From Gymnogyps californianus (lineage: Eukaryota; Chordata; Aves; Accipitriformes; Cathartidae), in the NCBI RefSeq assembly GCF_018139145.2, contig NC_059478.1:31557001-31621000 (forward strand): DNA of 64,000 nt, read 5' to 3'. Every line of letters begins with the position of its first letter. Within the stretch, counting starts at the first letter, position 1. The notes beneath the pieces were generated by a model, which did not search any database, was not told where the DNA came from, and was given only the letters and a program-made list of their open reading frames with translations. Shown one piece after another: positions 1 through 21,033 of the stretch. The position numbers were made by a program, and so were the translations under genes.

Positions 1-9162
<9,162 letters not shown>

Positions 9163-9431
9163 GCCAGTGTCCTGGTTTCGGCTGGGACAGAGTTAACTTT
9201 CTTTTTAGTAGCTGGTACAGTGCTGTGTTTTGGATTTAGTGTGAGAATGATGTTGATAACACGCTGATGTTTTAGTAGTTGCTAAGTAGCGCTTATCTTA
9301 AGCCAAGGACTTTTCAGTTTCCCGTGCTCTGCCAGCAAGCAGGTGTGCAAGAAGCTGGGAGGGAGCATGGCCGGGGCAGCTGACCCGAACTAGCCAAAGG
9401 GGTATTCCATACCATGGAACATCATGCCCAG

Positions 9432-9439
9432 TATATAAA
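9432..9439 (+). promoter_or_regulatory. LTR 1 TATA box
   Basis: TATATAAA sits about 264 bp inside the LTR, followed by a G-run (CTGGGGGGAG). The same motif occurs at the same relative place in the other LTR copies (from 19885 and from 20704), which marks it as the U3 core promoter of the family. Whether it is still active cannot be read from the sequence. Confidence 0.7.
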
Positions 9440-9659
9440 CTGGGGGGAGTTGGCCGGGAGGGGCGGATCGTGGCTCGGGAACTAACTGGGCATTGGTCAG
9501 CGGGTGGTGAGCAATTGCATTGTGCATCACTGGTGGGTTTTGTTTTTGTTTGTTTGTTTTCCCTTCCTCCCCCTCCTTTTTTGTTATATGCCTTTTCATT
9601 ACTATTATTATTATTACATTTCATTATTACTATTGTTAGTATTATATTTTACTTTAGTT

Positions 9660-9665
9660 ATTAAA
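9660..9665 (+). terminator. LTR 1 poly(A) signal (ATTAAA)
   Basis: ATTAAA in the context TTAGTTATTAAACTGTTCTT, conserved in the other two solo LTRs (20068-20073 and 20904-20909) and placed between the ATT-rich stretch and the CTCAACCCACGAG motif. This is the expected place for the R-region polyadenylation signal. It would act on plus-strand transcripts only, that is, antisense to DAB1. Confidence 0.6.
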
Positions 9666-9796
9666 CTGTTCTTATCTCAACCCACGAGTTTTACTTTATT
9701 TCTCCTCTTTCCTCCTCCTCACCCCACTGGGAGGGGGAAGGGGGAAGCGGCTGCGTGGTGCTGAGTTGCTGGCTGGGGTTAAACCACGACAGCCAG

Positions 9797-16298: not shown

Positions 16299-16303
16299 CA
16301 GTT

Positions 16304-16715
16304 TGTCCTGGTTTTGGCTGGGACAGAGTTAATTTTCTTCTTAGTAGCTGGTACAGTGCTGGGTTTTGGATTTAGTGTGAGAATGATGTTGATAACACGC
16401 TGATGTTTTAGTTGTTGCTAAGTAGCGCTTATCTTCAGCCAAGGACTTTTCAGTTTCCCATGCTCTGCCAGCAAGGAGGTGTGCAAGAAGCTGGGAGGGA
16501 GCATGGCCAGGACAGCTGACCCGAACTAGCCACAGGGATATTCCATACCATAGAACATCATGCTCAGCATATAAAGCTGGGGGAAGAAGAAGGAAGGGGG
16601 GGACGTTTGGAGTGATGGCGTTTGTCTTCCCAAGTAACCGTTACACGCGATGGAGCCCTGCTTTCCTGGAGATGGCTGAACACCTGCCTGCCGATGGGAA
16701 GCGGTGAACGAATTC
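16304..16715 (+). repeat. Left 412-bp LTR arm of the composite
   Basis: The plus strand starts like the solo LTRs (TGTCCTGGTTTTGGCTGGGA) and stays similar through the U3 region to the TATA box (ATATAAAG near 16570). It then departs into a different subfamily sequence (GGACGTTTGGAGTGATGGCG, later AGATGGCTGAACACCTGCCT). From memory this second part belongs to another LTR subfamily of the same avian group, whose complete copies continue past GAATTC to a poly(A) signal and the CCACGACA end. Here it stops at GAATTC (16710-16715) and 28S sequence begins. Confidence 0.88.
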
Positions 16716-16933
16716 GCCTGCCCTTTCGGAACAGCGCTCGCCTATCGCTTAGGACCGACTGACCCACGTTCAACTGCTGTTCACATGGAGACCTGCTGCG
16801 GATATGGCTACGGCCCGGCGTGAGACTTACACCCTCTCCCCCGGATTTTCACGGGCCAGCGAGAGCTCACTGGATGCCACCAGAACCGCGACGCTTTCCA
16901 AGGCGCGGGTCCCTCTCTCAGGGCGAACCCATT
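16716..16933 (-). pseudogene. 28S rRNA fragment, antisense half of the core
   Basis: Read on the minus strand this is large-subunit rRNA. It starts AATGGGTTCGCCC, runs through CCTTGGAAAGCGTCGCGGTT, GAGCTCTCGCTGGCC and ATCCGGGGGAGAGGGTGTAA, and reaches CATATCCGCAGCAGGTCTCC. At about 16786-16790 it jumps to an upstream 28S segment (ATGTGAACAGCAGTTGAACG to AAAGGGCAGGC) through the shared motif TCCAxGTGAACAGC. In intact 28S the second segment lies several hundred bases before the first, so the order is rearranged. About 19 CpGs survive in 218 bp, more than in the sense half. It is a fragment, not a functional rRNA gene. Confidence 0.9.
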
Positions 16934-17207
16934 ATCCACAGCAGGTCTCCATGTGAACAGCAGTTGAATGTGGGTCAGTTGGTCCTGAACGGTAAGTGAG
17001 CGCTGTTCCGAAAGGGCAGGCGATGGCGTCCACTGCCCTCAGCTGATCGAAAGGGAGTCGGGTTCAGATCCCTGAATCTGGAGTGGCAGAGACAGGCGCT
17101 GCGAGGCACGCAGTGCAGTGATGCAACCAATCCCAGAGAAACCGGCAGGAGCTCTGGGGAGAATTCTCTTTTCTTTGTGAAGGGCTGGGTGCCCTGGAAT
17201 GGGTTCG
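16934..17207 (+). pseudogene. 28S rRNA fragment, sense half of the core
   Basis: The plus strand starts ATCCACAGCAGGTCTCC, crosses the same rearranged junction as the other half, then continues collinearly through 28S: ATGTGAACAGCAGTTGAATG, CTGATCGAAAGGGAGTCGGG, TTCTCTTTTCTTTGTGAAGG, ending CTGGAATGGGTTCG at 17207. The right LTR arm then begins at GAATTC. Several CpGs of normal 28S have become TG or CA (for example CCGAATCCGG is now CTGAATCTGG), the signature of methylated, non-functional DNA. About 186 bp at its right end are absent from the antisense half, so the core is not a perfect palindrome. Confidence 0.9.
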
Positions 17208-17619
17208 GAATTCGTTCACTACTTCCCATCAGCAGGCCGGTGTTCAGCCATCTCCAGGAAAGCAGGGCTCCATCACGTGTAACGGTTACTTAGGAAGACA
17301 AATGCCATCACTCCAGACATCCCCCTCTTCCTTCTTCTTCCCTCAGCTTTATATGCTGAGCATGATGTTCTATGGTATGGAATATCCCTGTGGCTAGTTC
17401 GGGTCAGCTGTCCTGGCCATGCTCCCTCCCAGCTTCTTGCACACCTGCTTGCTGGCAGAGCATGGGAAACTGAAAAATCCTTAACTTAGGATAAGCACTA
17501 CTTCGCAACAACTAAAACATCAGTGTGTTATCAACATCATTCTCACACTAAATCCAAAACCCAGTGCTGTACCAGCTACTAAGAAGAGAGTTAACTCTGT
17601 CCCAGCCAAAACCAGGACA
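17208..17619 (-). repeat. Right 412-bp LTR arm of the composite (inverted)
   Basis: The reverse complement starts TGTCCTGGTTTTGGCTGGGA and follows the left arm over its whole 412 bp to GTGAACGAATTC. It has its own TATA-like motif (CTTTATATG on plus near 17348). Differences from the left arm are scattered substitutions, many of them CpG-type, so the arms have drifted or came from slightly different templates. Together the arms place two LTR promoters pointing inward at the 28S core. Confidence 0.88.
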
Positions 17620-18420
17620 CAGTTACAAAATGATGCAGTAGATCACAACAGGCTGTAAACATCTGCAGACTGCAGAGTCTGGTGGTTGTGCTTCTGTTCC
17701 TTGAATGGTTTGGTTCACTGTTGCAAATAAAGTCTCATCTAAATCATAGGACTTGGTCTTCTGGGGAAGAGAAGGTGAGCATCAGTCTCAAAAGAAGCAT
17801 AAAAGCCCTGCCACTTGGCCTCCTCTGAAGCTCACTCCACCCCACCTCCCACTTCACTTAACCCCAACAACACTTAAGCCCCGATACCACTGAGCAAAGA
17901 CCAGCAAAAAAGCTGCATCATGCACTGTGCTGTGATGGCAACTACGTCACCGATGCAACAGTGCAGCTGCAGAATCACCCTGCACCTTTCTTCCTATGGA
18001 ATTAGTGGCACTGACAATTGTGTCTGGATTTATTAGTCGTTCTGACGATATTGGTATACAATGCAGTTCTGGAACATGCAGACCCATAAGTTTCTGGCTT
18101 AAAAAGCTGGCTCCAAGGCCATGGCATTAGAGGCAGCATGTGGCCTCGGAAGGGAATTATGTACGCACCTTACAAAGCCTATTCTCACGCAGAAAAAGGA
18201 AAAGAATGAAAATGACATGTTAAAAACACACAGTAAATAGATTTGTAGAAATTATCCTATGATCACGCTAATTCAATAAGAAAAGCAGCTGCTCTTTATT
18301 TTCCACAGGCAAACAGAAATACCAGTATTCACCACATGGCAGTCAACAACAAAACAAACCACTACTTCCCTGCTGAAATTGTTCACATTTTGCTATCCAA
18401 TGTTTCAGGAAGAAAATTAT

Positions 18421-19620: not shown

Positions 19621-20196
19621 TGTCCTGGTTTCGGCTGGGACAGAGTTAACTCTCCTCTTAGTAGCTGGTACAGTGCTGGGTTTTGCATTTAGTGTGAGAA
19701 TGATGTTGGTAACACGCTGATGTTTTAGTTGTTGCTAAGTAGCGCTTATCTTAAGCCAAGGACTTTTCAGTTTCCCATGCTCTGCCAGCAAGCAGGTGTG
19801 CAAGAAGCTGGGAGGGAGCATGGCCAGGACAGCTGACCCCAACTAGCCAAAGGGGTATTCCATACCATGGAACATCATGCCCAGTATATAAACTGGGGGG
19901 AGTTGGCCAGGAGGGGTGGATCACTGCTCAGGCATCAGTCAGCAGGTGGTAAGCAACTGCATTGTGCATCACTTGTCTTTCCTTATTTCTTTTTTTTTGT
20001 TGTATTCTTTTTCATTACAATTATTATTATTATTAGTTAGTAGCGTATTTTTATTTTTACTTTAGTTATTAAACTGTTCTTATCTCAACCCACGAGTTTT
20101 ACTTTTTTTTCCTTTCCTCCTCCTCACCCCACTGGGAGGAGGGAGGGGGAAGCGGCTGTGTGGTGCTTAGCTGCTGGCTGGGGTTAAACCACGACA
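19621..20196 (+). mobile_element. Solo LTR 2, same avian ERV family
   Basis: A 576-bp solo LTR from TGTCCTGGTTTCGGCTGGGA to TTAAACCACGACA with a perfect 5-bp duplication AAGCA (19616-19620 and 20197-20201). The TATA box starts at 19885, the ATT-rich stretch is near 20021-20037 and the ATTAAA signal is at 20068-20073. It is the same structure and orientation as LTR 1 but shorter in the T-rich part. No viral reading frames adjoin it. It lies antisense to DAB1. Confidence 0.93.
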
Positions 20197-20439: not shown

Positions 20440-21033
20440 TGTCCTGGTTTTGGCTGGGATAGAGTTAACTCTCTTCTTAGTAGCTGGTACAGTGCTGGGT
20501 TTTGGATTTAGTGTGAGAATGATGTTGATAACACACTGATGTTTTAGTTGTTGCTCAGTAGTGCTTATCCTAAGTTAAGGACTTTTCAGTTTCCCATGCT
20601 CTGCCAGCAAGCAGGTGTGCAAGAAGCTGGGAGGGAGCATGGCCAGGACAGCTGACCTGAACTAGCCAAAGGGGTATTCCATACCATGGAACGTCATGCC
20701 CAGTATATAAACTGGGGGGAGTTGGCCGGGAGGGGTGGATCGCGGCTCAGACATCGGTCAGTGGGTGGTGAGCAACGGCATTGTGCATCACTTGTCTTTT
20801 CTTGGGTGTTATTTCTCTTTTTTTTATTATATTCCTTTTCATTACAATTATTATTATATTTTTATTATTACTAGTTAGTATCATATTTTCTTTTACTTTA
20901 GTTATTAAACTGTTCTTATCTCAACCCACGAGTTTTACTTTTTTTCCCCAATCCTCCGCCCCATCCCACTGGGAGCAGGGAGGGGTGAGCGGCTGCGTGG
21001 TGCTTAGCTGCTGGCTGGTGTTAAACCACGACA
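20440..21033 (+). mobile_element. Solo LTR 3, same avian ERV family
   Basis: A 594-bp solo LTR from TGTCCTGGTTTTGGCTGGGA to TTAAACCACGACA with a perfect 5-bp duplication GAAGC (20435-20439 and 21034-21038). The TATA box starts at 20704 and the ATTAAA signal is at 20904-20909. It lies only 243 bp after LTR 2 in the same orientation, but each has its own duplication and the DNA between them has no retroviral content, so they are separate insertions rather than the two LTRs of one provirus. Confidence 0.93.

Follow-up and report, generated by a model that had tools for sequence, protein, structure and literature searches.

Several described systems join host RNA sequences to retroelements. In LTR-mediated gene retrocopies, a host RNA is captured by the reverse transcription of an LTR element and integrated together with LTR sequence, and SINEs derived from 28S rRNA carry 28S sequence within a retroelement that multiplies by way of LINEs. 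Solo LTRs, in turn, are U5-ended products of recombination between two LTRs. The LTR-28S palindrome described here resembles each of them in part. Host RNA is likewise captured and integrated with LTR sequence, although in retrocopies it lies inside a normal element ending in U3 and U5, whereas here both ends are U3. The palindrome also contains 28S-derived sequence, but of this core a single copy was found, with LTR ends doing the joining. It has the U3, the TG/CA ends and the 5-bp duplication of a solo LTR of the same endogenous retrovirus (ERV) family, but U3 stands at both ends and there is no U5. Chimeras of LINE-1 and 28S have been reported (PMC13174262, which also mentions the 28S-derived SINEs) in which 28S fragments of 50-482 nt (n=18) are joined to the retroelement, by RNA ligation or template switching as their authors suggest; the 28S edges recur near one position and 83% of the fragments are sense to the element. 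As in the palindrome, a reverse transcriptase joins 28S to a retroelement, but the LINE-1 chimeras are target-primed, without LTRs or the 5-bp duplication of an integrase, and the accessible part of that report mentions no palindrome. Host RNAs occur in retroviral particles (PMC5086612). In a third study, SIV and mock preparations contained comparable amounts of rRNA fragments, which are therefore not evidence of packaging (PMC3781035). Template switching by reverse transcriptase is already known; neither a double-U3 LTR-28S element nor a catalogue of an ERV "U3-U3" pathway appeared in the titles and abstract openings searched, a scope outside which most subscription papers fall.

The palindrome lies in the window, i.e., the 64,000-nt stretch of the Gymnogyps californianus genome analysed here. 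Its features are given in Table 1, together with the chimeric 28S loci found elsewhere in the genome.

Table 1. Features of the palindrome and its surroundings (window coordinates) and other 28S chimeras of the same genome (L numbers)
Feature	Location	Strand	Details
Target-site duplication, left copy	16299..16303	.	CAGTT, 5 bp
Left arm (LTR)	16304..16715	+	U3 terminus TGTCCTGG, then TATAAA (16570-16575), about 130 bp of R and the GAATTC end
28S rRNA, antisense to left LTR	16716..16797	-	Pseudogene-28S coordinates 2905 to 2822
Internal 28S-to-28S joint, left-half copy	16776..16798	+	GCTGTTCACATGGAGACCTGCTG
28S rRNA, antisense, beyond the jump back	16798..16933	-	Pseudogene-28S 3215 to 3080
Palindrome centre	16928..16937	.	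...GAACCCATT/ATCCACAG...
28S rRNA, sense	16934..17207	+	Short piece 16934-16948, followed after the same jump by 2822 to 3089
Internal 28S-to-28S joint, right-half copy	16939..16961	-	Identical to left-half copy
Right arm (inverted LTR)	17208..17619	-	U3 terminus at 17619
Target-site duplication, right copy	17620..17624	.	CAGTT
Solo LTR, same family as arms	9168..9791	+	Duplication GCCAG
Solo LTR, same family as arms	19621..20196	+	Duplication AAGCA
Solo LTR, same family as arms	20440..21033	+	Duplication GAAGC
L041	1547-2333, contig C1, 183.70 Mb		Complete LTR, GTCCTTTTTGG, antisense 28S (184 nt aligned), AACCAGGACA; duplication AACCC
L042			Sense 28S adjoining pol-like sequence (RT_RNaseH_2, E=0.002, under the curated cut-off)
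L043			LTR with 122 nt of antisense 28S in place of the R-U5 middle; duplication CTCCT
L044			Sense 28S, then R-U5, ending CACGACA; no U3
L072	Contig C1, 61.51 Mb		LTR, L062-like leader, sense 28S
L073			LTR as far as position 554 (approximate), followed by antisense 28S
L074	1286-1931		LTR with 50-nt sense 28S patch inside U3; duplication CCTAC
L077			U3 1-246, then antisense 28S

The unit opens and closes with a U3 terminus (TGTCCTGG.../...CCAGGACA), so that it reads TG...CA from end to end, and CAGTT stands once on each side of it. Such termini and a 5-bp target-site duplication are those of an integrase product. Among 50 LTR end pairs (fetched LTR loci plus the window, some pairs being counted twice), exact duplications were of 5 bp in 22 cases and never of another length. 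The preliminary description had taken the whole for a single integrated unit with one 5-bp duplication, and this proved correct. No match to U5 was found within 16304-17619, and the usual layout of a provirus or solo LTR, running from U3 to U5, is absent. The arms are 412 nt each and enclose 492 nt, as had been described, but they are not perfect copies, since 24 mismatches separate them (94.2% identity). Both consist of U3 and the first ca. 130 bp of R from one LTR subtype, and they break off in R at GAATTC, upstream of ATTAAA (which we take to be the poly-A signal of this LTR family) and of U5, as seen by comparison with copies such as L004 and L006 that match the arms through the R part and display what the arms are without. 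The R part of the left arm could be aligned in 33 of 43 compared LTR copies (those with a letter at arm position 301), and the three solo LTRs of the window share only their first ca. 280 bp with the arms. Two of these, at 19621 and 20440, are 243 bp apart and lie 2-3 kb from the palindrome. The ERV family itself is presumably ERVL-like.

The palindrome is a real structure of this sequence. A chance origin is excluded because the duplicated 5-mer sits exactly at the TG/CA ends and the 23-nt internal 28S joint occurs twice in the window, against 0.00 expected. Two opposed solo LTRs merely lying side by side, the case against which the preliminary description had set its claim, would bring two duplications, and they are ruled out: neither arm is complete, both stop at the same position in R, and there is one duplication only. 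Ordinary nested LTRs in opposite orientation do occur (L053 and L060), and the palindrome differs from both. Palindromes are common among long-read artefacts, and an inverted read-through in the assembly or the library could be suspected. Artefactual palindromes are nevertheless expected to be near-identical, whereas 24 substitutions and different family variants distinguish the arms, the centre is asymmetric, and the duplication flanks the unit, so we regard an artefact as very improbable.

The core gave an Rfam match to LSU rRNA (16944-17323, 59 bits with a gathering score of 50), the final part of which extends into the LTR arm. Compared with an rDNA pseudogene of the same genome (contig C274, L040, 428000-437500), a degenerate copy with 5.8S and part of 28S, nearly all of the core is 28S, antisense in 16714-16933 and sense in 16940-17207. 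The rearranged 28S core of 492 bp that had been described between the arms is thereby confirmed. Identity to the pseudogene is 82-86%, a figure that probably understates the likeness to functional 28S because the reference is degenerate; the genome searches made found no functional 28S. For the same reason, mutations shared by both halves away from functional 28S were dropped as an argument. The 28S-to-28S joint is common to both halves, as is the base at which they leave the LTR. With the right half as reference, a deletion of 186 bp at a 2-nt microhomology accounts for the left junction. At the centre there is a 6-nt complement (ACCCAT/ATGGGT) with one extra T, and pairing there is possible. 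Collections of phages and viral contigs gave no match.

A search of the same genome with the core yielded eight candidates, all of them scored: the palindrome, the C274 pseudogene and six further loci (L041-L046). A second search, with the 28S upstream of the core, gave 14 candidates, again all scored, and 13 further loci besides C274; both together span pseudogene-28S positions from about 995 to 3215. Of the 20 dispersed 28S loci, palindrome included, nine are chimeric with ERV sequence, eight with the LTR family of the arms and L042 with pol-like sequence. The core search alone contributed four 28S fragments joined to one or the other, each with its own breakpoints. In the palindrome, 28S is joined directly to the retroelement with short homology at its joints, as for template switching by a reverse transcriptase, and the switching onto rRNA that had been proposed for this locus is supported by its sibling chimeras. 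No junction with the arms' LTR family was seen at L068, L070, L071, L075, L076, L079 or L080, and no LTR junction at L045 or L046. Left out of the nine were L069, in which an old LTR 3' part lies ca. 190 bp from the 28S, and L078, a solo LTR with its own duplication (GGGGG) and 28S ca. 840 bp off. At 1501-1856 of L078, several 28S pieces occur in changed order and orientation, and no LTR was found joined to them.

The chimeras are separate events, since their LTR breakpoints and 28S pieces differ, and so do the duplications found (L041, L043 and L074). At L073 a duplication CCTTC is ambiguous, the 28S itself reading CCTTC there, and it is not claimed; at L044 a flanking duplication was looked for and not found. 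The 28S edge of L044 at its flank forms an 8-bp hairpin, GCTTCTCC-CACT-GGAGAAGC, like a short cDNA snapback. Past the 28S of L072, the opposite strand is open for 361 codons, for which Pfam gave nothing meaningful (one hit, HCMV_UL116, E=0.0001, below cut-off and in a threonine-rich stretch), and no U3 start with the matching duplication CTTGC, which would have made this locus a third double-U3 element, was found within 10.2 kb beyond its 28S. In five of the nine chimeras (the palindrome and L041-L044), the 28S has its 3' edge in a 24-nt interval around the CCCCGAGAGAGGGG hairpin, with a simulated chance of 0.0002 for uniform edges in 324 nt, a post hoc value. The 3' edges of the four chimeras from the upstream query lie elsewhere (pseudogene positions about 2341, 2069, 2810 and 2034). 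L073 and L077 share a 28S 5' edge (1981 and 1978), as if copying had run off the same fragment end. Four of six loci (L041, L043, L044 and L045) are located within ca. 16 Mb of contig C1 (167.6-183.7 Mb; simulated chance 0.0001), but over all 19 dispersed loci other than the palindrome the value is about 0.03 by hand, and this clustering was not used.

L041 is the sibling nearest in design. Its GTCCTTTTTGG is the leader as far as the TGG of the primer binding site (PBS), as in L062, where the leader after the LTR is GTCCTTTTTGGCACCCAACGTGGGG and the PBS is, we assume, of the tRNA-Lys type; the sequence thus exits the ERV 11 nt into the leader and 3 nt into the PBS. At the other end, AACCAGGACA repeats the initial 10 nt of U3 in inverted orientation, and a single duplication, AACCC, stands on both sides of the whole element. 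The LTR breakpoint, the 28S piece and the R subtype are all other than those of the palindrome, and L041 reads as an independent second double-U3 element of the same design. No signal of DNA secondary structure was detected in its 28S part (z 0.16).

The existence of L041, with U3 at both ends and 28S inside, could be taken to favour what the preliminary description had suggested, a non-autonomous family that replicates, with terminal inverted repeats made of LTR sequence and with 28S as its core. However, L041 differs in breakpoint, 28S piece and R subtype, and none of the eight core-search candidates in this genome held a second palindromic core. The copies with the same arms, the same core and independent duplications that were to be looked for were thus not found by the core search of this genome, where the chimeras differ in breakpoint and 28S piece, and the proposed family is left unsupported. 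The first look with the whole unit gave 6985 candidates; 40 of them were scored, and the only full match among those scored was the palindrome locus itself; as sole evidence against a family this search is weak, because the arms are common in the genome. Many copies with the same termini and core, by which a DNA transposon family with terminal inverted repeats would be recognized, were not found, and the arms belong to an LTR family. Moreover, by general retroviral knowledge, a transcript of the palindrome would be without 3' R, and the left U3 could not be regenerated by ordinary strand transfer. We thus give the family a minimal chance. The palindrome shows neither a function nor any sign of copying itself.

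The best explanation, to which we give a probability of roughly 0.6, is that the palindrome is a single aberrant reverse-transcription product of an ERV that makes 5-bp duplications, inserted by the integrase of that ERV. The ends, the duplication, the identity and orientation of the 28S, the junctions, the arm variants and the sibling L041, on which this explanation builds, can be read off the DNA itself. Plus-strand DNA primed at the polypurine tract would have begun at U3, copied U3 and part of R and, at GAATTC, switched to a fragment of 28S rRNA, copied as antisense. It would then have jumped backward by roughly 400 nt within the 28S, at a short imperfect repeat. Its 3' end would have snapped back at the 6-nt complement and copied itself toward its own 5' end, and the last ca. 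150 bp of U3 may have been finished on a second nascent plus strand, from another LTR haplotype. This second strand would have primed the complementary strand, giving a linear duplex whose two termini are both U3 ends. Integrase, whose use of two U3 ends is known from in vitro work, would have joined both, leaving the single 5-bp duplication; the loss of 186 bp in the left half and the substitutions in both arms would have come afterwards. On the same account, L041 would have had no snapback, and its second primer would have been extended by only 10 nt. We infer the intermediates, the order of the strands and the source of the RNA, and among these steps the snapback and the second-strand finishing are the weakest.

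The orientation of the 28S bears on the first of these steps. Since a DNA strand copied from rRNA is its antisense, 28S following a U3-first plus strand should be antisense, as it is in the U3-first pieces (the palindrome, L041, L073 and L077), while the U5-ended L044 has sense 28S, the orientation expected from minus-strand synthesis. Two patches within an LTR, L043 (antisense) and L074 (sense), are compatible with either route. Against a simple orientation rule are L072, in which U3 and leader precede sense 28S, and L042, with pol-like sequence followed by sense 28S; a minus-strand origin would require both to have ERV-derived sequence, copied earlier, beyond the 28S. The PBS is where plus-strand strong-stop DNA normally pauses before the second-strand transfer, and the switch point of L041 lies at this site.

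The copying of one half from the other was examined by comparing the arms with each other and with the sample of 43 LTR copies, in which sites were taken as variant from a rarer state of 15%. At positions 1-150 the arms differ at 12 of 150 sites, including the family variants 30, 32, 131, 136, 137 and 143, and the outermost ca. 145 bp of the right arm carry family variants other than those of the left. At 151-285 the differences are 2 in 135 sites, one of them at the family-variable position 173, and each arm is at least 6 differences away from every copy with enough coverage. At 286-412 there are 10 in 127, 7 at CpG, and the left arm is closer to one copy (L057, 5 differences) than to the right arm. 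Rare states common to both arms are C at 230 (in 1 of 43 others), C at 406 (1 of 32, a CpG site) and G at 59 (3 of 37). The contrast between 1-150 (12/150) and 151-285 (2/135) has p=0.012, and that between 1-150 and all of 151-412 (12/262) p=0.19. For variant sites alone it is 6/15 versus 1/18 (p=0.030) if site 32 is included, whose rarer state (6/43) is just below the 15% cut, and 5/14 versus 1/18 (p=0.064) without it. It should be noted that in 151-412 the two arms are separated by 12 differences in 262 sites, and the left arm and L013 by 13 in 258; over the whole arm the figures are 24/412 and 25/405. The arm comparison as such supports self-copying by snapback only weakly. The common 28S joint, breakpoint and rare states favour one source for the inner parts, and the overall distances are no proof of it. 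A simple snapback of one molecule was accordingly modified once the arm variants were seen, and support for it was lowered by the p values of 0.19 and 0.064.

The same differences can be explained with no hairpin if two independent plus strands, each already extended with antisense 28S, annealed by their 3' ends, primed each other and were integrated through their two U3 ends. Mutual priming of this kind would account for the differing outer variants and for both U3 ends, six complementary bases are available at the centre, and in 151-412 the distance between the arms is scarcely smaller than that to L013. However, the halves have an identical 28S joint, the GAATTC breakpoint and rare inner LTR states in common, and because of these features independent strands would need the same coincidences twice, or else a shared circular or rearranged 28S template. 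We therefore consider this route unlikely, albeit the most plausible of the alternatives. A rearrangement after integration, in which an LTR-28S chimera or a solo LTR came first and an inverted duplication and gene conversion followed, is less probable still. The 186-bp deletion of the left half does look later, nested opposed solo LTRs exist (L053 and L060), and the outer right arm resembles a neighbouring LTR, the one at 20440, which is the nearest to it of all compared copies and from which the outer-arm differences could derive by gene conversion. But an inverted duplication would not set the right U3 terminus exactly against the copy of the left duplication, and L041 has the same end design with an inverted U3 of only 10 bp. 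The 12 differences in 262 sites at 151-412, most of them at CpG, suggest an age of a few to about a dozen million years, a rough figure that takes general bird rates and assumes inner arms identical at insertion.

Genomic fossils would be valuable if they revealed the host RNA to which a reverse transcriptase switched, together with the intermediate and the strand involved. The breakpoints point to the step, plus-strand DNA being diverted at the PBS in L041 or in R in the palindrome, and the double-U3 ends imply a germ-line joining of two U3 termini by an integrase. Specific rRNA fragments may have served as templates, as the clustered 28S 3' edges of five among nine chimeras hint. That an avian ERV lineage repeatedly used defined 28S fragments at or before the second transfer, with its integrase inserting the products by way of two U3 ends, is a tentative proposal that we hold to be possible but doubtful. 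If true, a dead-end "U3-U3" pathway would have been taken recurrently and would be recognizable by inverted-terminus elements, and scanning bird assemblies for them can test this reading. In annotation, elements of this type account for matches to 28S within LTRs, which repeat masking may split or discard.
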